Part shown: positions 175-6,816 of the stretch, piece by piece | How positions within the stretch are numbered: the first letter of the stretch is position 1 | How the letters are laid out: the number at the start of each line of letters is the position of its first letter | NCBI GenBank assembly: GCA_025353305.1 | Contig: JANXQX010000188.1 | Coordinates: 1-10,120, forward strand | DNA from: Holophagaceae bacterium | Lineage (GTDB): Bacteria > Acidobacteriota > Holophagae > Holophagales > Holophagaceae | Reading direction: 5' to 3' | DNA length: 10,120 nt | The notes under the pieces: model-generated | Database searches by the model: none | Told to the model about the DNA's origin: nothing | What the model saw: the letters and a program-made list of their open reading frames with translations, nothing else | Made by a program: the position numbers and the translations under genes

Positions 175-1656
175 CTAGTGCCGGTCTCCTTGCGGAGGGA
201 GGAGGCTCATGATCGTGTCGCGAATAGCCCGCTGGTCACAGCCCTGTACGAGCATCATTTCGGCAGCGGCCCAAACCTGTACCACTACGGACCGGGAGTA
301 GCGGACATCTCCGAGGAGGGCGCAGAGGATGTGGATGATTTCCCGTCGGAGGCGGTCCCATGCCGCGGGAGCCATTTCCACGACATCCTCATCTGCCGTC
401 TCATCCTCGGCCATTGTTTCCTCGTCGGACTTGGCGGTTTCCTTATCGCTCCAGAGGCCGCCAACGCGGAACCAGCGCATGCCGCGAGTCGCGTTCCACA
501 AATTGATGCGTTCGCCCACGGGCATCTCTGACTCAGAGAGTCCGCGAGCCCGCTTCAATGCGCCGAACACGCCCTCTTTGAAGAGTCGGTCCAAGTCGGC
601 CAACCGGGATCCGGGCGCTTCCATCTCTGTCACGTCGATGGCCAGATCCTCGTGATGTTTGTCGCCCTTTACGACGTAGTGAACGACAGCCGCCAGCGCA
701 CCCTGGGCCATCTGGAGCCAGTCGTCCTTCCACTCGCAGGTGATATGGAAGCGCGGAGCATTCTTCTCGAACCAGGCCCGGCAGCGGTCCCGGTATTCCA
801 GGAACCACTGTTCCTTCTCCGCGAGGGTAGGCAGTTCCATCGGAGGCCGCAGGGAGCCACCAAATTGTAGGTGAGGATGGAATCCAAACATCGACGAGAA
901 GGTGGTTTCAGGGGCCATGAAGTACCCCGCCAGAACTTTGGGGTGGAAGGACTTCACACGGCGATCTCCGCCCACCCATGGCTGTTTGGCGAACTCGTTC
1001 CAGAGGTCACTGAGGGCGTCGAATTTCTCTCGCGGGTTGCCACCCATGTGGTGACGGCAGGTTAGCGCCCCGGCGACGTGGATCAGGCTGGAATCTTGCT
1101 CCACGAAGGAAGCCCGGCGCTGAAGCTGGAGAAGCCGCCGTACGGCCAGCCGCAGCCCGCAGACCGGGCAGAGACGCTTGCAGCACTTCCAAAGCCCAGC
1201 GACGTGGCCACCGATATCCTTGCCCTCTCGGCTGACCTTGCGTCTTCCTACGACGCGCAGCTTGCCATCCTTGTCCTTCCCCCTCCTCGACTTTCCGCAA
1301 ATACGAAGATTTTTCAGTACGTGGGCCGATTCCGGTCTCTCGCCGAACTGCTTCTGGATGGCCTGGAGAAAATCTGCTTTCTGGGACCAGGTGGACTTCC
1401 GACCTCCGCGCCGGAACCCGGCCAGGGATGGAACCGCCTCGGCAGGAACACCTGAAGGAAGCGGCTTGTATTCATGCGTTTGGGAGTTGGTGCTATTTTG
1501 TGGACGCCGCCCCTTCCGGGGCGGCCTCGCATCGCTCGTCTGTTCGGCATTGGCTCGAGGTCGTGACGACTTCCGCGAACCCTCTTGAGATTGTGCCGGC
1601 GGTTCGTCAGAACCCATACTGGTAGCGCGGGCCGTGAGGTCCGGTGCTGTCGACAT
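175..1656 (-). CDS. rep: Rolling-circle replication initiator, Rep_1-like HUH endonuclease
   Basis: A 493-residue protein read from ATG at 1656. The order of motifs is that of plasmid rolling-circle Rep proteins. A Cys/Trp-rich finger comes first (C120, then W157-K-C159 and CPVC at 163-166). A degenerate motif 1 lies around residues 192-225. The metal-binding HUH motif reads H260-P-H262-L. Motif 3 is H-Y327-V-V-K330, with Tyr327 as the expected nicking residue and Lys330 as its partner. Such proteins nick the double-strand origin and stay covalently attached to the 5' end. The first 90 residues are Arg/Ser/Pro-rich and look disordered, and the tail after about 400 is acidic then helical, so the protein is longer than the usual 300-350 residues. 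The start was chosen because an AGGGA Shine-Dalgarno (1664-1668 on the minus strand) precedes it by 7 bases. The frame stays open to 1875, but that extension covers the inverted repeats and has poor protein character. Confidence 0.82.
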   Translation of the reverse strand: MSTAPDLTARATSMGSDEPPAQSQEGSRKSSRPRANAEQTSDARPPRKGRRPQNSTNSQTHEYKPLPSGVPAEAVPSLAGFRRGGRKSTWSQKADFLQAIQKQFGERPESAHVLKNLRICGKSRRGKDKDGKLRVVGRRKVSREGKDIGGHVAGLWKCCKRLCPVCGLRLAVRRLLQLQRRASFVEQDSSLIHVAGALTCRHHMGGNPREKFDALSDLWNEFAKQPWVGGDRRVKSFHPKVLAGYFMAPETTFSSMFGFHPHLQFGGSLRPPMELPTLAEKEQWFLEYRDRCRAWFEKNAPRFHITCEWKDDWLQMAQGALAAVVHYVVKGDKHHEDLAIDVTEMEAPGSRLADLDRLFKEGVFGALKRARGLSESEMPVGERINLWNATRGMRWFRVGGLWSDKETAKSDEETMAEDETADEDVVEMAPAAWDRLRREIIHILCALLGDVRYSRSVVVQVWAAAEMMLVQGCDQRAIRDTIMSLLPPQGDRH

Positions 1657-1668
1657 GGATGTGTCCCT

Positions 1669-1684
1669 GCGCCTGAGAAGGCGC
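1669..1684 (-). promoter_or_regulatory. Short GC-rich hairpin just 5' of the rep ribosome binding site
   Basis: GCGCCT (1669-1674) and AGGCGC (1679-1684) pair perfectly across a 4-base loop. In the minus-strand transcript this stem abuts the AGGGA Shine-Dalgarno at 1664-1668. It could influence ribosome access and thus Rep level. Function is inferred from position only. Confidence 0.45.
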
Positions 1685-1701
1685 TTTGTCCTGGCCAGCA
1701 C

Positions 1702-1730
1702 GGTGGGGGTCGTTGGCGCGACACCCCACC
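1702..1730 (-). repeat. 11-bp bulged hairpin in the rep leader
   Basis: GGTGGGGGTCG at 1702-1712 pairs with 1719-1730 (CGAC, one bulged A at 1723, then CCCCACC) around a 6-base loop, TTGGCG. It is about 45 bp upstream of the rep start. Either strand's transcript would fold strongly. There is no T run, so it is not an ordinary terminator; leader control or part of an origin fits better. Confidence 0.5.
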
Positions 1731-1788
1731 CCAGGCTATTTGAATGAGGAACCCCGGTGCTGCTCTGGGGCCCATGTGTGATCGGCTC

Positions 1789-1844
1789 ACCCTCGCCAAG
1801 GCAATGCCAGGTAAAGCACCTGTCATTGCCTTGGCTACGAGGGT
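1789..1844. repeat. Long three-part cruciform/hairpin upstream of rep; candidate double-strand origin
   Basis: The left arm ACCCTCG-CCAAGGCAATG (1789-1806) pairs with CATTGCCTTGG (1824-1834), a 3-base bulge CTA (1835-1837), and CGAGGGT (1838-1844). After one C/T mismatch the stem continues as CAGGT (1808-1812) with ACCTG (1818-1822) around loop AAAGC. That gives 23 base pairs with only one mismatch and one bulge. It is the strongest structure in the window and lies 133 bp upstream of the rep start. Nick sites of rolling-circle origins commonly sit in or beside such cruciforms. A transcription-attenuation hairpin is the alternative. Confidence 0.6.
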
Positions 1845-1911
1845 GCCCGTGGTCGGTGGCAGGCAGCCCCAACATTCACTGATCGCGAAGAACCATCGAA
1901 TCGCTCGCGCC

Positions 1912-1956
1912 CGTCCCATCTCCCCCCCTTGGACGAGGGGGAGACGGGCCGGGACG
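1912..1956. repeat. Imperfect GC-rich hairpin between the regulator and rep
   Basis: TCTCCCCC (1919-1926) pairs with GGGGGAGA (1937-1944) across a 10-base loop. An outer stem, CGTCCC (1912-1917) with GGGACG (1951-1956), lies beyond an asymmetric internal loop. It lies about 110 bp past the stop of the AlpA-like gene on that gene's strand, so it could be a terminator for that transcript, but there is no T run. It may instead be part of the replication origin. Confidence 0.45.
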
Positions 1957-2064
1957 AACGCAGGGGGAAGAACTGCCAAGGGATGGGGACCCCTTGTAAA
2001 CCTGCGAAATGAGAGAGGGATCCAAGCCGAACCCCGCAGTGGGTGAGTTTACAAGATGCGCTCA

Positions 2065-2307
2065 TTACGCTGCCGACTCGCGGTCGGCCAGGAGCCGCTT
2101 GACTAGGAACCGGATCTCGTCGTCACCCTTGCCGGCTATGCGCGCGGCGTTGAGGGCTATCACCTCATACTCGGGCCACCCTCTAGCTCTCTCCCTAATT
2201 TTTACCGGCTTCGTGTAAAGCCCTTTCTTGATGTCGTCGTAATGCGTGCTCCTGGAGAGGCCACGCTGGCGGAGCACTTCGGGAAGTCGGAGGATTGCTT
2301 GGGACAT
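2065..2307 (-). CDS. AlpA-family DNA-binding regulator
   Basis: An 80-residue protein beginning MSQAILRLPEVLRQRGLSRS. The pattern ILRL-x2-V, then GLSRST-x-Y-x3-KKGLYTKPVKI, then a GW-x6-ALNAARIAGKGDDEIR tail is that of AlpA/CP4-57-type regulators. These are small MerR-like winged-helix proteins common on integrated elements, where they activate excision or regulate element genes. An in-frame GAGG Shine-Dalgarno (2315-2318 on the minus strand) lies 7 bases before the ATG. A good sigma70-like promoter is visible upstream (2389-2416). The gene is followed by the hairpin-rich region and then rep on the same strand, so it may influence rep expression. The family is clear; the target is not. Confidence 0.85.
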   Translation of the reverse strand: MSQAILRLPEVLRQRGLSRSTHYDDIKKGLYTKPVKIRERARGWPEYEVIALNAARIAGKGDDEIRFLVKRLLADRESAA

Positions 2308-2348
2308 ACATGAACCTCATAGGACATGAAGCCCATGCTAGATGTGCG

Positions 2349-2389
2349 GTTTTGCGCACTAGGCGCGCTCGGCCAACCCGTTTTGCGCA
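2349..2389. repeat. Direct repeats GTTTTGCGCA over the regulator promoter; operator candidate
   Basis: The 10-mer GTTTTGCGCA occurs at 2349-2358 and again at 2380-2389, 31 bp apart, so both copies sit on nearly the same helix face. The second copy touches the -10 hexamer of the AlpA-type gene's promoter and covers its likely start site. The first lies in the transcribed leader. A protein binding both would repress, which suggests autoregulation by the AlpA-like protein or control by the HTH protein of the neighbouring operon. The core TTGCGCA recurs at 2483-2489, 5370-5376 and 5393-5399. Confidence 0.5.
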
Positions 2390-2416
2390 TTCTATGGATT
2401 TCCCAAATGGGTTCAA
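2389..2416 (-). promoter_or_regulatory. Sigma70-like promoter of the AlpA-type gene
   Basis: On the minus strand TTGAAC (2411-2416) and TAGAAT (2389-2394) are separated by 16 bp. They match the consensus at 4 of 6 and 5 of 6 positions. Transcription would start near 2382, giving a leader of about 75 bases before the ATG at 2307. No other pair of comparable quality was found nearby. Confidence 0.55.
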
Positions 2417-2477
2417 TTGGCCGTATTGGTTTCTGTGGTGAAAATTTATTATTAGGCCAAGGGGTGTGCCAACAACG

Positions 2478-2520
2478 TCGGATTGCGCATAGGCAGTGGA
2501 GGGTCCGACGCGCAATCCGA
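2478..2520. repeat. 11-bp inverted repeat TCGGATTGCGC in the divergent control region
   Basis: TCGGATTGCGC (2478-2488) and its exact complement GCGCAATCCGA (2510-2520) are separated by 21 bp. The centre-to-centre distance is 32 bp, about three helical turns, like the 31 bp of the direct repeats at 2349-2389. The arms carry the same GATTGCGC core that is found near the oriT at 5368 and 5391. This fits a protein-binding site shared between the two regulatory regions better than an RNA hairpin. Confidence 0.5.
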
Positions 2521-2650
2521 TCCGGGGAGGACAGAGCCCCGTCAAACGCTCCTCGGTCCCTGCAGGCTTACTGGCCAAAAAGACTTAGGGTACATTAAGG
2601 TAAATAGTTTCATAAATTTGGAGTGATGTGACCAAAATACCGTGGAACCA

Positions 2651-2676
2651 TTTCACACTTCGTTTCACACTGTGAA
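2651..2676. promoter_or_regulatory. Operator-like TTTCACACT repeats and TTCACA palindrome upstream of the three-gene operon
   Basis: TTTCACACT occurs at 2651-2659 and 2663-2671, a 12-bp period. The second copy runs into TGTGAA, making the palindrome TTCACA-C-TGTGAA at 2664-2676. It lies 26 bp before the start codon of the first gene of the operon. This is the usual place and form of a repressor site, plausibly for the HTH protein encoded by the second gene. A convincing -35/-10 pair for the operon was not found; the AT-rich stretch at 2585-2620 is the likely promoter area. Confidence 0.5.
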
Positions 2677-2702
2677 GTAGGACATCCCACAGAGAGCGCC
2701 CA

Positions 2703-3530
2703 ATGAGCCACCACCTCTTCCTTGCGGATCCTCCCGAGACCGTCCCCCTGTCGACAAATGCCCCCCTGGAGCGGGTGATTGCACAGGTGAAGTTCCCCCC
2801 GATCCATCTAGCGGAGAAGAAGGGGATTCATGTCGGCTTCCATGAGTTGATCAAGCGCGAGTTCCCATATTGCACTCCTGAGCGGTTGCTTCAGATTGCC
2901 TGGGCGCCCGAGGGGGGTGAACTAAAGCAGATGGAAGCCCAGAATGTTTCCTTTCGTTTCGCATCGGCCGACAAGCAATGGGAACTGGTTCTCGCCGATG
3001 ATTTCATTTCGTTGGTTTGTACGCGCTACGACACGCGGGAAGAATTTGTCCAACGTTTCCGCTTGGCCATAGAGGTTGCGGCCAACTACTTTGGCATCGC
3101 CTACTGGGGGCGATTAGGTCTTCGGTACATCAACCGTGGCCCTAGATCAGAAGACCACGCTCGTGATCAATTCCAACAAATGCTAAAGGCGGAATACCGT
3201 GGAATCCCTGGAACGACCATTCTTGACGGGATGACGAACTGTTTGTTTTCAGCCGAATGGGATCTGGGCGGAGTTTTTGCCGCCGTTCGACATGGGTTCC
3301 TTGCGGCTGGGACCACCTACGAACCAAGTGGTGTTCCACCCTGGACCAAGGAAGCATGGATCCTTGATGTCGATGTATTCCTGAATCCCGAACGGAGTGG
3401 CCAGGTCGAATCCTTCACTGCTGATACGCTTTGTGCCAAGTTCTCAGAATTAGCCGACCGCGAATATTGCATCTTCAGGGAGTTGGTTACGCCAGAATTC
3501 ATAGCGGCACATAGGGGGGAGAAACAATGA
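2703..3530 (+). CDS. TIGR04255 family protein
   Basis: A 275-residue soluble protein with no signal peptide or membrane segment. The N-terminal LSTNAPLERVIAQVKFPPI (16-34) corresponds to the 'naPi-Evv-qirFp' opening of the TIGR04255 family. FRFASADKQWELVLADDFISLV followed by TRYDTREEFVQRF (84-119) matches the family's central beta-rich block. GRLGLRYINR (136-145), LDVDVF (221-226) and FRELVTPEF (258-266) match the later conserved blocks. Length is typical for the family. No biochemical function is established for it that I can name, and no catalytic motif is visible. A weak AGAGAG Shine-Dalgarno sits 6-7 bases before the ATG. The stop overlaps the next gene's start as ATGA, so the two are translationally coupled. 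Hand-counted lines in this operon are lower in GC than the flanking modules. Confidence 0.75.
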   Translation: MSHHLFLADPPETVPLSTNAPLERVIAQVKFPPIHLAEKKGIHVGFHELIKREFPYCTPERLLQIAWAPEGGELKQMEAQNVSFRFASADKQWELVLADDFISLVCTRYDTREEFVQRFRLAIEVAANYFGIAYWGRLGLRYINRGPRSEDHARDQFQQMLKAEYRGIPGTTILDGMTNCLFSAEWDLGGVFAAVRHGFLAAGTTYEPSGVPPWTKEAWILDVDVFLNPERSGQVESFTADTLCAKFSELADREYCIFRELVTPEFIAAHRGEKQ

Positions 3531-4138
3531 GTCCGGTCTACCAGCCGAGAATCTTGCCCTTGGAAGCGTGTTTCATTGCCTTTCTTACGGCAGTGCCATC
3601 TCCTGCTGGGCAGGACAACCTTCGTGCTAAACCAAAGCATCAACTCGTTGATATTAGTCGACCCGCAACCCCATCCCACACACTTGCATTCCGTCGCCTT
3701 AGAACCCTCACCGGTCTCTCCAAGACAAGACTATCTGAGATGCTATGTGTGGATCGTAGGACTCCGTATAACTGGGAAGACGGCAAGCCGATATCCCCTT
3801 CGAACGAGGCTCATCTGAGAGAAATCCTCGCTGCTCTGGAACCGCTTGAAGGGTGGGACCCCGAGTCAATTCGGGGATCTATACTTTCCATGGATGAAAA
3901 TGGTGTATGCCCAATGGATCGGTTCCGAGAAGGCCAATACCAGGAAGCAACCGCACGAATGTTCGCAGCCCTAAAAAACGGGGGACGTAGTTCATTCGGC
4001 GCTGTGGCTTTAGGGCATAGAGACCTTGCTGCTTCCCTGAAAGTCAGTGACCTGGATACTGATGAAGACCTGCCAATGACCAGCAAGACAGGCAAAAGGC
4101 TACGAATCGCCGGAAAGGTGATTCACAGCCGTGATTGA
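3527..4138 (+). CDS. Helix-turn-helix protein, second gene of the operon
   Basis: A 203-residue protein. Residues 52-104 (from TLAFRRLRTLTGLSKTRLSE through VDRRTPYNWEDGK) look like a Cro/C1-type helix-turn-helix. The GLSKTRLSEML and RRTPYNWEDG segments fit the two core helices and the 'sxxtvsrWExG' signature. The N-terminal 45 residues and the C-terminal 100 residues match nothing I recognise. It starts inside the stop codon of the upstream gene (ATGA) and overlaps the next gene by 8 bases, so it is a fixed part of this operon. It is probably the operon's regulator, acting at the TTCACA palindrome upstream, or the DNA-targeting part of a complex. The long C-terminal domain suggests it may do more than repress. 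Confidence 0.65.
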   Translation: MSPVYQPRILPLEACFIAFLTAVPSPAGQDNLRAKPKHQLVDISRPATPSHTLAFRRLRTLTGLSKTRLSEMLCVDRRTPYNWEDGKPISPSNEAHLREILAALEPLEGWDPESIRGSILSMDENGVCPMDRFREGQYQEATARMFAALKNGGRSSFGAVALGHRDLAASLKVSDLDTDEDLPMTSKTGKRLRIAGKVIHSRD

Positions 4139-5000
4139 TGTGTCGTCCGTTAACCAGGCAACCGCCGACTGGTGGCAGGGTGACTATATTCTTCTCGAGG
4201 AACTTGGTGATGATTACCCATTAGAAATGCTTCACCTGGTAGGGGGACAGGAAATGGAGCCTTCTACGGATGAAGCTATTGCCTGTAGATCACTCGATGT
4301 AGATGGCTTTGCAATGATCACTCAGACTTGCGATGTCACCCGCGAATGGAAGGGCAAAGAGAGAAAGTGGGTAATCCTGGCACCCGTGGTAAAGCCACCA
4401 AGAGACCAATGGAGATCAATATGCAGCGGCAGTGGATCGCGGTACCACACAACCGAAACACTTAAGGCACATGGTTTGGCAATTGATCTTGAACGAATGC
4501 AGACCTTTTCGAAGCTGGCCCTAGCGAAGGTTTCCAAATTTCGACGCTCTGGATGCTCATCTCAATCAGAGCGGAGAATGTTAGCCGAGGCTATCGGAGA
4601 CAAGCTCACCCGTCCTGCGTTACCGGACGATCTTACAAGTTCAGAGGCTGGCCATGAAGGGGCAATAGCTGAACTAGAAGGATGTCTTACCCAAGCAATA
4701 GAGGAGGAGGGGGATCTTGGACATTTCCTCCGGGCTACTCACGAAATTCGCCTCATGCCATTTGGGGAGAACACCGCTAACCCCTGGGAAACAGGAACAG
4801 TGGAAGTTCTATTTTATTTCATCATGAGGGTTCCACGCCTTGCCGCGACAGATCTTGAACAGTGGGAACCAATGGCGAAGGATATCGTCACGCTTCTGAA
4901 GACAAACGGTCGGTTCAGGCTTAGGGGTGTGGGCTACAAAATCGAAACTTGGAATAGCCTGAGTGCAGCGGAATTGAAGCGCTCAGATCGGTTGGCCTAG
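4131..5000 (+). CDS. Unnamed protein with TQTCD motif, third gene of the operon
   Basis: A 289-residue soluble protein starting at GTG 4131 inside the previous gene; GTG at 4140 is an alternative. I cannot name the family from characterised members. Notable segments are WWQGDYI (14-20), ITQTCDVTR (63-71) followed by a basic patch and WVILAPVV (80-87), and KLTRPALPDDL (158-168). The hydrophobic strand ending in TQTCD and the RPA-x-PDD block look like conserved family signatures. Cys67 and Asp68 are candidate active or metal-binding residues, but no fold can be assigned by eye. Residues 174-195 form an acidic helix. Overlap with the preceding frame and lower GC (28 of 60 bases at 4201-4260) mark it as part of the cargo operon. 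A role in defence or as a toxin component is conjecture. Confidence 0.6.
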   Translation: MIDVSSVNQATADWWQGDYILLEELGDDYPLEMLHLVGGQEMEPSTDEAIACRSLDVDGFAMITQTCDVTREWKGKERKWVILAPVVKPPRDQWRSICSGSGSRYHTTETLKAHGLAIDLERMQTFSKLALAKVSKFRRSGCSSQSERRMLAEAIGDKLTRPALPDDLTSSEAGHEGAIAELEGCLTQAIEEEGDLGHFLRATHEIRLMPFGENTANPWETGTVEVLFYFIMRVPRLAATDLEQWEPMAKDIVTLLKTNGRFRLRGVGYKIETWNSLSAAELKRSDRLA

Positions 5001-5024
5001 CTCTATCAACCATCTCCAAGGAGA

Positions 5025-5324
5025 TCAGAATTCGGTCGATCCCTTGGCGGAGGATTCTTCTCTCATGGAGAGGTCAAACAGTGCCCGATCCCGGTTCCAC
5101 CGAAGGAAGGGATCCATGGCTTTGCGCAAATCTTCCAAGGTCCTCATCGAGGGGATTGAATGACTGGCTTCTAGTTGATTGAGGACCATGAGCCCGACGA
5201 GGACCGCGCGCCTGGTTCGAGTTTTCCTGTCAGCCTCCTTGGTCTGTCCTTCCAGCTTTGCTGCACGGGCTAACAGTTGAGAGGCTTTTGCCCTGATCTC
5301 AGAGGCTCGAGTTGCCTTGTCCAT
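5025..5324 (-). CDS. TraD-like conjugal transfer/mobilization accessory protein
   Basis: A 99-residue basic protein. The first 32 residues form a charged amphipathic helix. They are followed by DRKTRTRRAVLVGLMVLNQL (32-51), the RK-x-R/D-TRR-x-x-x-x-G pattern of the small TraD family encoded beside relaxases on Ti-like and other mobilizable plasmids. Such proteins are thought to assist relaxosome assembly at oriT. The ATG at 5324 is preferred because GGAGG (5329-5333 on the minus strand) lies just before it, with a short 4-base spacer. The frame stays open to 5729, but that extension runs through the oriT and antisense to the relaxase. The gene diverges from the relaxase across the oriT region. 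It converges on the cargo operon with only 24 bp between stop codons. Confidence 0.72.
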   Translation of the reverse strand: MDKATRASEIRAKASQLLARAAKLEGQTKEADRKTRTRRAVLVGLMVLNQLEASHSIPSMRTLEDLRKAMDPFLRWNRDRALFDLSMREESSAKGSTEF

Positions 5325-5367
5325 GGGACCTCCATAGACCCATTCTCCTCCTCCGGCCAGACCCCTT

Positions 5368-5399
5368 GATTGCGCATGGATGGGGGACAGGATTGCGCA
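5368..5399. repeat. Direct repeat GATTGCGCA beside oriT
   Basis: GATTGCGCA occurs at 5368-5376 and 5391-5399, 23 bp apart, between traD and oriT. The 10-mer GATTGCGCAT at 5368-5377 is identical to 2481-2490 in the control region of the AlpA-type gene. This suggests the same protein binds upstream of traD and upstream of the regulator. Copies lie 45-75 bp upstream of the TraD start, where a repressor or activator of traD would act. Confidence 0.45.
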
Positions 5400-5433
5400 A
5401 AGGGCCGCCCAAAAGGCCGCGCAAAAGAGCCAT
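5398..5433. repeat. Three imperfect 12-bp tandem repeats beside oriT
   Basis: CAAAGGGCCGCC (5398-5409), CAAAAGGCCGCG (5410-5421) and CAAAAGAGCCAT (5422-5433) follow one another without gaps. The third copy is the most diverged. They end about 25 bp from the nic core, so they could bind an accessory relaxosome protein such as the TraD-like protein, or be a control site for the divergent genes. Confidence 0.4.
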
Positions 5434-5456
5434 GAAGAGATGGTGTACGGTACCCG

Positions 5457-5488
5457 AAGGGCGCACTTATACATTCCATGCGGAATGT
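5457..5488 (-). other. oriT: Origin of transfer, oriT, of the IncQ/Ti (MobA/MobL) type
   Basis: Read on the minus strand, a perfect 7-bp inverted repeat (ACATTCC, loop GCAT, GGAATGT; 5471-5488) is followed directly by ATAAGTGCGCCCT (5458-5470). TAAGTGCGCCCT is the nic core shared by Ti-type origins and, with one change, by RSF1010 (TAAATGCGCCCT). An inverted repeat just before the nic core is the IncQ arrangement. It is where the relaxase encoded next door would nick and attach through its tyrosine. It lies between the divergent traD-like and relaxase genes, as usual for this class. The exact cleaved bond is not shown by sequence alone. Confidence 0.85.
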
Positions 5489-5549
5489 GTGCGCCGAGGG
5501 GATTGGGGCAAGCCCCTCCCCTGGACCCCAACCCATTTCCCATGCCGCC

Positions 5550-6524
5550 ATGTCCCTCTACCACCTCGCCGCCCAGGTCATCTCCCGCAGCACCGGTCGC
5601 AGCGCCACCGGGGCGGCAGCTTATCGGGCAGGAGAGCGCATCGTCGACGACCGGACGGGGCTGGTCTTTGACTTCTCCCGCCGCAAGGCTGTGGACCATT
5701 CCTTCTGCAGGATCATGGCCCCAGCGCATTCACCCGACTGGGTCTTCGATCGCCGCGAACTCTGGAACCGAGTGGAGGCGGCGGAGAAACGCAAGGATGC
5801 TCAGGTCACGCGTGAAGTCGAGCTGGCCTTACCTGTCGAATTCACGCCAGAAGAGCAGATGGCGCTGGTATTCAGTTTCGTCCGGGAGCAGTTCGTGGCG
5901 CGAGGGATGATCGCGGACATCAGCCGGCACGTGAATGTAGGAAATCCCCACGCGCACATCCTCCTGACCATGCGCCCCCTCGTGAATGGACAGTTCTCTT
6001 CCAAGAAGGAAAGAGGCTGGAACGATGTATCCCTGCTCTTGGAGTGGCGGGAGGCCTGGGCGAATGCCCAAAATGCTGCCTTTGAAGGCCGCATGGTGAA
6101 CACACGGGTGGATCACCGGAGCCTGCGGGAGCAGGGCATCGCGAGACCGCCGCAGAAGCACATTGGTGCGGTTGTTTGGAACCTGGCAGTCAAAGGCCTG
6201 ACTTGGGCCAAGGAGGTAGTCGATGCGAAGAGATGGAGGTGGGCCAGTGAATCGCAAAACCTCGAAGAAGTCTGGCGAGAATCAGCAGTTCGATGGGACC
6301 AGTCCTCAGCTGGCCGGAGCCTCGGCCAGCAATCCTTCCGCGACCTCTTCCTCCGGATTGTCCGTCCCGAAGGAGGCCGGTCTCCCGGATCTCAGGATGC
6401 TGATGGCCTTCGCGGCGCCTCAGCCCCCTCGGTGGGAGGCGGACCATCCCACGGTTCAGAAGTGGAACAAGGACCAGCTGAACTACCTTCTTCGCAGGCG
6501 CCGAGGCAGTCTCGAGGCCGATGA
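5550..6524 (+). CDS. mobL: MobA/MobL-family relaxase
   Basis: A 324-residue protein from ATG 5550. It opens MSLYHLAAQVISRSTGRSAT, and Tyr25 in GAAAYRAGE sits where the catalytic Tyr of RSF1010 MobA is found. The metal-binding motif is D123-x3-H127 with NPHAHILLTMR (H134, H136). VDHRSLREQGI followed by PPQKHIG (188-206) is the next conserved block. The enzyme nicks oriT and carries the strand to the recipient. An upstream in-frame ATG at 5478 lies inside the oriT hairpin and adds 24 residues unlike the family, so it was not chosen. No Shine-Dalgarno precedes 5550. After residue 225 the sequence loses family resemblance and becomes Ser/Gly/Pro-rich, where it overlaps another gene. It lacks the helicase domain found in long TraA relaxases. 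Confidence 0.87.
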   Translation: MSLYHLAAQVISRSTGRSATGAAAYRAGERIVDDRTGLVFDFSRRKAVDHSFCRIMAPAHSPDWVFDRRELWNRVEAAEKRKDAQVTREVELALPVEFTPEEQMALVFSFVREQFVARGMIADISRHVNVGNPHAHILLTMRPLVNGQFSSKKERGWNDVSLLLEWREAWANAQNAAFEGRMVNTRVDHRSLREQGIARPPQKHIGAVVWNLAVKGLTWAKEVVDAKRWRWASESQNLEEVWRESAVRWDQSSAGRSLGQQSFRDLFLRIVRPEGGRSPGSQDADGLRGASAPSVGGGPSHGSEVEQGPAELPSSQAPRQSRGR

Positions 6525-6816
6525 GGAGTGGATGGAAGAGCTATTTCCCCTGATGGAGAAGCCCCTCCCCGCCGGGCTCAAGGCCTGGTTGGTGGACCTG
6601 CCCGTTGCATATGAACCGGAAGGGAAGCGGTCATATCTCGTCCTTTGTGCGGAACCTCCGGTACCCGGACGGACCTTGCTGATCCGTCCGATTATCGAGG
6701 GCTCGCTCATCTCGGGAACGGTTATGTGGGCCAGTTTCGAGCTTGGGGAGGCGCTGCTCCGGGAAGTCTGGGTTGGAGCCGCCTTGGATCAGCGGATTTA
6801 CCTTGATGCCATCTAG
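6223..6816 (+). CDS. Unrecognised protein overlapping the relaxase gene
   Basis: A 197-residue protein of unknown family. AAGGAGGT (6210-6217) lies 5-6 bases before ATG 6223, an ideal Shine-Dalgarno. A second candidate, GTG 6247, is also preceded by GGAGG (6235-6239). The first 55 residues are Ser/Lys/Asn-rich and probably disordered. From about 57 to 197 it looks like a folded alpha/beta domain (WEADHPTVQKWNKDQLNYLL, then SYLVLCAEPP, then LLIRPIIEG). There is no signal peptide or membrane span. It overlaps the relaxase by 302 bases in the +1 frame. Its last bases CTAG (6813-6816) also hold the stop codon of the converging helicase gene. Being co-transcribed with the relaxase, it may be a mobilization accessory protein, but this is inferred. 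Confidence 0.65.
   Translation: MRRDGGGPVNRKTSKKSGENQQFDGTSPQLAGASASNPSATSSSGLSVPKEAGLPDLRMLMAFAAPQPPRWEADHPTVQKWNKDQLNYLLRRRRGSLEADEEWMEELFPLMEKPLPAGLKAWLVDLPVAYEPEGKRSYLVLCAEPPVPGRTLLIRPIIEGSLISGTVMWASFELGEALLREVWVGAALDQRIYLDAI

Follow-up and report, generated by a model that had tools for sequence, protein, structure and literature searches.

A conserved three-gene operon led by a TIGR04255 protein in a Holophagaceae bacterium as a candidate toxin-antitoxin-like cargo module

Introduction

Toxin-antitoxin-chaperone (TAC) modules are the nearest working analogue of a three-gene operon found in a 10,120-nucleotide stretch of DNA from a Holophagaceae bacterium (contig JANXQX010000188.1), which was analyzed at its full length and is referred to as the window. 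Passages of PMC5105189 describe SecB-like chaperones of TAC modules that serve HigBA, HicAB and MqsRA pairs, and passages of PMC11618068 describe the CmdTAC chaperone, which senses phage capsid, whereupon the toxin is freed. The operon of the window consists of gene A, encoding a TIGR04255 family protein, gene B, encoding a helix-turn-helix (HTH) protein, and gene C, encoding a protein with a QTCD motif (QxCD in the wider family). Like TAC modules, it comprises three small adjacent genes, in which one accessory family is combined with several antitoxin/toxin families. In contrast to TAC modules, the accessory gene comes first, A is not recognizable as SecB, and the predicted toxin fold and the candidate antitoxin are different ones. 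The logic of an accessory gene with exchangeable pairs is common to both, but the parts are not.

Other described systems compare with individual parts of the operon. The MazF/PemK/Kid and CcdB toxins (PF02452 and relatives) are like the predicted fold of C residues ~13-163 but show no sequence similarity to C, which has an invariant QTCD motif and an extra C-terminal part. HEPN and PIN toxins form a class of two-gene toxin-antitoxin pairs, and C is neither HEPN nor PIN. PDC-M32, a phage-defence candidate of PADLOC that passages of PMC12429752 list in Sinorhizobium prophages, is related to a sister class of TIGR04255 operons and not to the operon of the window. A first-pass annotation, made from the letters of the window, had described A, B and C as a compact cargo operon and as a candidate for an undescribed defence, toxin-antitoxin or signalling system. 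Below, the observation is confirmed and the interpretation partly supported.

Results

Conservation of A, B and C as a unit

The three overlapping open reading frames (ORFs) on the plus strand were confirmed in the sequence (Table 1). A and B overlap by four bases (ATGA, 3527-3530) and B and C by eight (4131-4138), so that the operon shares the small overlapping or coupled genes of type II toxin-antitoxin systems. The overlaps suggest coupled translation; that the products are made in a fixed ratio, as had been proposed, does not follow from them.

Single-sequence scans of genome and viral contigs with C detected no relatives, and an alignment-based search (alignment A1) recovered 16 loci in genomes and one in a viral contig. 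With tblastn, C recovered five plasmid records from Chroococcidiopsis, Rhizobium etli (two), Sinorhizobium and Sphingomonas, all of which had the order TIGR04255, HTH-type gene, C, with B unannotated in Sphingomonas. A-B-C was contiguous in 18 of the 22 first-fetched loci, including two in which C was split (L010 and L011) and one in which it was cut by the contig end (L021). Neither A nor B was found in the remaining L014, L018, L019 and L020, where C was truncated or frameshifted. In surveys that sampled two taxonomic groups centred on operon-bearing genomes, C was present in 6 of 292 genomes around the Calothrix of L008 (G001) and in 3 of 289 around the genome of L016 (G004). All ten C places in these surveys had A and B adjoining, with C interrupted in one (G282); two of the ten are the centres themselves, which are also counted among the 22 loci. 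Since the gene order is shared by 18 of the 22 loci and by all ten survey places, co-occurrence of the three families is not rare, which would have refuted the first-pass view. The records in which they form a fixed unit carry the labels Cyanobacteria, Alphaproteobacteria, Gammaproteobacteria, Actinomycetota and Planctomycetota, and this supports the description as a compact cargo operon and as a candidate for an undescribed system.

Searches starting from A gave a similar picture. Eight plasmid and three phage records were found by tblastn, and seven of the eight plasmids carried A-HTH-QxCD, namely the five already found with C and those of Kocuria (L085) and Pseudomonas luteola (L087). On the eighth, from Rhizobium sp. 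CB3060 (L086), TIGR04255 was followed by a different gene pair; this three-gene operon (1192-6174), with an NlpC-like third gene as judged by eye, lies beside a multiubiquitin/ThiF/DUF6527 operon. Partner genes were read in two of the three phage records, the third being a second record of Acinetobacter MD-2021a. The MD-2021a 'phage' record that was read (L088) showed A-HTH-QxCD, and a fecal phage scaffold (L089) had no recognized TIGR04255 partner. That several copies of the unit reside on plasmids or phage-like DNA is partly due to the plasmid and phage collections having been searched.

The junctions were conserved as well. Across 19 loci, A and B met at -4 in 16 (range -8 to +6) and B and C at -89 to +11, with start codons chosen by the analyst in L008, L012, L022 and L062. 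Pairwise protein distances in 19 loci were correlated between A and B (r 0.85), A and C (0.92) and B and C (0.89), values reached in 0 of 2000 permutations each, which in part reflects shared host phylogeny. Reading the loci by hand, we found A and B beside all 25 full-length long C genes (window included), and both were lacking beside four of seven broken ones (25 intact with A and B, 0 intact without, 3 broken with, 4 broken without, 2 contig-cut; p 0.001). As read from these sequences, the association between broken C and loss of A and B is suggestive only.

Predicted fold and conserved core of C

Profile searches of each protein, as the first-pass annotation had proposed, yielded a clear family for A and sub-threshold matches for B, but none for C, which had zero matches at E<=1 in Pfam, NCBIfam, PADLOC and PHROGs. 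The best hit of C in a PDB sequence profile search (E 0.022) was no toxin. AlphaFold2 (AF2) predictions cover the single chains of A and C. In the model of C (predicted local distance difference test score, pLDDT, 88.5), the first ~160 residues (13-163) are predicted to adopt the MazF/CcdB toxin fold, which was placed first by the second of two structure aligners among the 50 entries listed. Together with HEPN and PIN third genes in related operons described below, this fold narrows the earlier guess to a toxin-antitoxin-like module.

Both blocks singled out in the first-pass annotation proved to be conserved. Within ITQTCDVTR, residues Q65, T66, C67 and D68 are invariant across the 53 rows of alignment A7, and RPALPDDL falls in a region conserved as R-F-A-F-P-D. 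The Cys and Asp of the motif are also invariant in six short QxCD proteins (alignment A9). These short proteins are related to C (hhalign probability 97.7%, E 2.5e-12, 139 columns), but the alignment stops at C residue 170 and the C-terminal part of C (residues 165-289) is absent from them. The short-QxCD profile matched 2,223 proteins at E<=0.001, and 0 of the 120 listed carried a Pfam domain; none was found in a search of phages.

Features of A and B

Membership of A in the TIGR04255 family was clear (105.4 bits against a cut-off of 30, E 4.2e-30 in NCBIfam), as the first-pass annotation had stated. In Pfam at E<=1 its sole match was Imm58, below the cut-off, and no SecB-family chaperone, the third component of TAC modules, was detected. 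The AF2 model of A (pLDDT 84.7) has an alpha/beta fold, apparently duplicated, with weak TBP-like and guanido-kinase-like resemblance in structure comparison; SecB is not among the structure matches listed, which is no evidence either way. We know of no role for the TIGR04255 label, and the PubMed Central full texts searched, a scope outside which most subscription papers and preprints fall, contained no mention of the term 'TIGR04255'.

The HTH ascribed to B was located at residues ~55-95 by sub-threshold matches. R77, W83 and G86 of B are invariant in the 17 rows of alignment A6, and all 13 loci in which the B-derived HTH profile had a match carried it beside QxCD. Since the Kyte-Doolittle maximum exceeded 1.6 in just 5 of 20 B proteins, a conserved transmembrane stretch is not general. 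A perfect palindrome directly upstream of A (TTCACA-C-TGTGAA, 2664-2676), which was equalled in 44 of 200 shuffles, may be a possible operator.

TIGR04255 genes with exchangeable partners

The partners of TIGR04255 were classified at 56 places, 35 of them cyanobacterial (29 of 292 genomes, five places fetched separately) and 21 alphaproteobacterial (17 of 240 genomes). Downstream genes were sorted by iterated profiles with analyst-given names, and such profiles can drift. Partners could be classified at 50 places, with six unclassified. The largest class, with 21 places, had a 'WDGY' middle gene, followed in six by a third gene matching the NPHA profile. HTH plus long C accounted for ten places, of which two belong to the centre genomes, and a short QxCD (131-209 residues) without the HTH gene for eight, of which seven had another middle gene. 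A 'YYRV' third gene was present at seven places. The remainder had third genes of the HEPN type (two; L048 with PF05168 at E 4.7e-8, L049 by profile match), the PIN type (one; PF01850 at E 6.8e-11 in Pfam, outside the iterated profile set) and an NlpC-like type (one; by eye). With seven partner classes across 50 places, TIGR04255 leads operons with exchangeable partners. HEPN or PIN genes thus stand third behind TIGR04255 in 3 of 56. The 79-residue middle gene of the PIN operon matched only itself among 194 genomes, which leaves an antitoxin role for it conjectural.

A same-strand ORF of at least 90 residues started between -30 and +15 nucleotides of the TIGR04255 stop in 49 of 56 places; for random positions in these loci, the proportion was 28% on the same strand and 8% on the other. 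A looser rule was met at 53 of 56 stops but also at 54% of random same-strand positions, and the stricter rule is therefore quoted.

WDGY middle genes of this sister class matched PDC-M32A over its C-terminal ~110 residues (best E 1.2e-8, 9.1e-8 and 5.1e-6; three of four in one test and none of one in another), the matching genes being those of L082, L083 and L079. PDC-M32B was weakly matched by one of eight third genes tested (E 0.0034). TIGR04255 was also considered as the N-terminal part of PDC-M32A and rejected, as no match was seen in eight proteins.

The middle gene as candidate direct partner

The middle gene of the HEPN operon had 13 matches. Nine loci were re-read; the remaining four comprise the locus of the query itself and three loci containing internal stops. 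The HEPN gene adjoined in eight of the nine, and a recognizable TIGR04255 within ~3.3 kb in none. Since HEPN and middle gene occur without TIGR04255 in these eight of nine loci, A looks like an add-on. L125, L127 and L129 have a ~230-residue gene before the HEPN and middle pair, perhaps another accessory, without a TIGR04255 profile match.

A similar pattern was observed for short QxCD genes, which occurred at 11 places in a sample of 285 cyanobacterial genomes. One of these (L142) was discarded as probably spurious. TIGR04255 was present in six places. L143 consists of middle gene and QxCD with no A. The near-identical L139 and L140 retain the tail of the middle gene behind an apparent A start (by eye), with QxCD intact, an apparent deletion, and L141 has a 259-residue ORF in the position of A that scored 3.7 bits with the A profile. 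A middle ORF, or its tail in L139 and L140, thus lies directly upstream of QxCD in all ten credible places, and A is unrecognizable in four. By gene order, this points to the middle gene as the direct (antitoxin) partner, with A as an accessory, although at L072 of the alphaproteobacterial sample no middle ORF was found. In L143, a tRNA-Gly gene (974-1044), possibly an integration site, lies upstream of the pair.

MazF and CcdB antitoxins bind through extended C-terminal tails. Six of the seven middle genes before short QxCD (all except L053) encode a short hydrophobic-acidic C-terminal tail as judged by eye, such as RPPLVLDFE or PLPYPMDEE, and these tails fit this mode of binding. The B protein of the window is without such a tail.

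Flanks of the operon

The first-pass annotation had placed the operon between a regulator/replication and a mobilization module and had described it as lower in guanine plus cytosine (GC) than the helicase and AlbA_2 genes, and both descriptions hold. 'Cargo' is a fair description, as the operon is bordered upstream by genes for an AlpA-type regulator and a Rep_1-like protein and downstream by the MobQ relaxase gene (Table 1). GC was 53.9, 52.3 and 50.8% in A, B and C, compared to 59.7-64.5% in six other window genes, and GC at third codon positions 58.7, 48.0 and 49.0 compared to 61.7-82.6. Other flank genes encode a Pif1-like helicase and an AlbA_2 protein (Pfam/NCBIfam profiles). No direct repeats of 15-200 bases were found between the window ends. 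The Rep_1-like protein had zero tblastn relatives in 72,556 plasmid records, and the replicon of the window may itself be undescribed. A 197-residue ORF (6223-6816, plus strand) without a family match overlaps the 3' part of the MobQ gene in another frame.

Of 114 flank ORFs listed for 18 loci, 75 were scanned, with mixed results. At E<=1e-10, a few PADLOC families, such as methyltransferases, SoFic, RmrA and PDC-S36, were represented by one or two members each, next to housekeeping genes. As the scan had no control and families were not assigned to loci, no enrichment in defence islands is claimed.

Table 1. Position and support of features in the window
Feature	Position	Strand	Basis and proposed role
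Gene A, TIGR04255 family protein, 275 aa	2703..3530	+	ORF list; TIGR04255 profile; proposed accessory/sensor
Gene B, HTH protein, 203 aa	3527..4138	+	ORF list; weak Pfam/NCBIfam HTH matches; alignment A6; proposed antitoxin/repressor
HTH region of B, residues 55-95	3689..3811	+	PF13560 below cut-off
Gene C, QTCD (QxCD) protein, 289 aa	4131..5000	+	ORF list; no family match; AF2 model; proposed toxin-like effector
Predicted MazF/CcdB-fold domain, C residues 13-163	4167..4619	+	Structure comparison of AF2 model
Invariant QTCD motif, C residues 65-68	4323..4334	+	Alignment A7
Extra C-terminal alpha/beta part, C residues 165-289	4623..4997	+	Secondary structure of model; hhalign vs short QxCD family
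AlpA-type regulator, upstream cargo border	2065..2307	-	PF05930 E 2.6e-7
MobQ relaxase, downstream cargo border	5478..6524	+	NF041496 227.6 bits, cut-off 200
Rep_1-like replication-type protein	175-1875	-	Rep_1 E 4.7e-4, below Pfam cut-off

Discussion

The reading we prefer, and to which we give about an even chance, is that A-B-C is a tripartite toxin-antitoxin-like cargo module, possibly acting in abortive infection, with C as effector, B as antitoxin or repressor and A as accessory or sensor. It builds on the operon anatomy, the conservation of the unit, the predicted fold of C and the exchange of B/C partners, HEPN and PIN genes included, beside TIGR04255; from these we infer a toxic C, a neutralizing B, a sensing or stabilizing A and growth arrest as the outcome. 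The effector C would combine a domain of the MazF/CcdB fold with an unusual Q-T-C-D core and an extra C-terminal domain. B, produced just ahead of C by coupled translation, would bind and silence C, and its HTH would repress the operon. A would either stabilize the B-C complex or sense a trigger, so that C would be released if either A or B lost its function, and the outcome may be abortive infection.

A number of results weigh against this reading. For the fold of C, Foldseek listed nothing at E<=0.001, and its best 50 hits included no entry titled MazF or CcdB. Sequence comparison did not place C among the MazF proteins either, as hhalign against 18 of them gave a probability of 1.9% with no detectable similarity and PF02452 (MazF/PemK) was not matched in Pfam at E<=1. 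The catalytic residues of MazF are Arg and Thr/Ser; no 'RP' motif is seen in the conserved blocks of C in alignment A7, a comparison at the level of sequence. The HTH of B depends on sub-threshold matches to Pfam HTH_31 (PF13560, E 0.0051) and the NCBIfam VC1465 family (E 2.2e-4), and when an operator was sought upstream of A in 22 loci, 36 or more of 200 shuffles equalled the best palindrome of every locus. PADLOC-DB 2.0.0 at E<=1 contained no match for A, B or C. WDGY and YYRV partners, which make up 28 of the 56 places, are no known toxin types, and at one place of the alphaproteobacterial sample (L072) QxCD follows directly behind A, with no middle ORF found. The association between broken C and missing A and B was weaker under an automatic rule (23 intact with A and B, 1 intact without, 5 broken with, 3 broken without, 2 contig-cut; p 0.039), which scores L018 as its intact case without A and B with the last ~45 residues in another frame, counts L085, L087 and L088 as broken although they are single ORFs of 312, 287 and 270 residues, and L011 as intact despite a start in another frame. 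The pattern would likewise be expected if whole operons decayed, and loci found via C presuppose C.

The same parts could serve plasmid addiction in the manner of TAC modules, with A as an antitoxin-stabilizing chaperone and the operon keeping a plasmid rather than stopping phage. This fits the Rep/Mob element in the window, the several relatives on plasmids and an exchange of partners that resembles the HigBA, HicAB and MqsRA pairs of SecB-type TAC in the passages of PMC5105189. We nevertheless regard it as rather unlikely, given that many relatives lie on contigs not labelled plasmid, that A has no SecB match in Pfam, that the accessory gene comes first and that A is unrecognizable beside four of ten short QxCD genes. 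A non-toxic regulatory or signalling module, in which the barrel of C is a binding domain, B an ordinary repressor and A a reader of a small molecule or nucleic acid, would be in line with the lack of MazF sequence similarity in C, the weak TBP-like and guanido-kinase-like resemblance of the A model and the weak HTH of B. The sporadic distribution of C (6 of 292 and 3 of 289 genomes) fits a conflict module better, however, and the base composition unlike the flanks, the HEPN and PIN partners elsewhere and the broken C in four loci without A and B likewise argue against it; on these grounds it is unlikely. Three unrelated cargo genes brought together by chance would account for cargo position and low GC, but are contradicted by the conserved order and junctions, the co-varying distances and the occurrence in several phyla, which makes this explanation highly improbable.

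Beyond the toxin-antitoxin-like module proposed for the window, we tentatively entertain, as a possibility short of probable, that TIGR04255 serves as the constant component, a sensor or adaptor, in a large unrecognized class of three-gene immune (abortive-infection) operons of modular build with plug-in pairs (HTH plus QxCD, short middle gene plus QxCD, HEPN, PIN, WDGY plus NPHA related to PDC-M32, and YYRV). QxCD would then be a new, non-MazF effector family with a MazF-like fold and a Cys-Asp core. The A-B-C unit is conserved yet unnamed, and would be of interest if it is a bacterial defence switch. If TIGR04255 is the shared control protein of exchangeable pairs, a widespread label would gain a testable role, as would a large effector family without a Pfam domain, and TIGR04255 operons would represent a natural parallel to chaperone-controlled, phage-sensing toxin-antitoxin systems.

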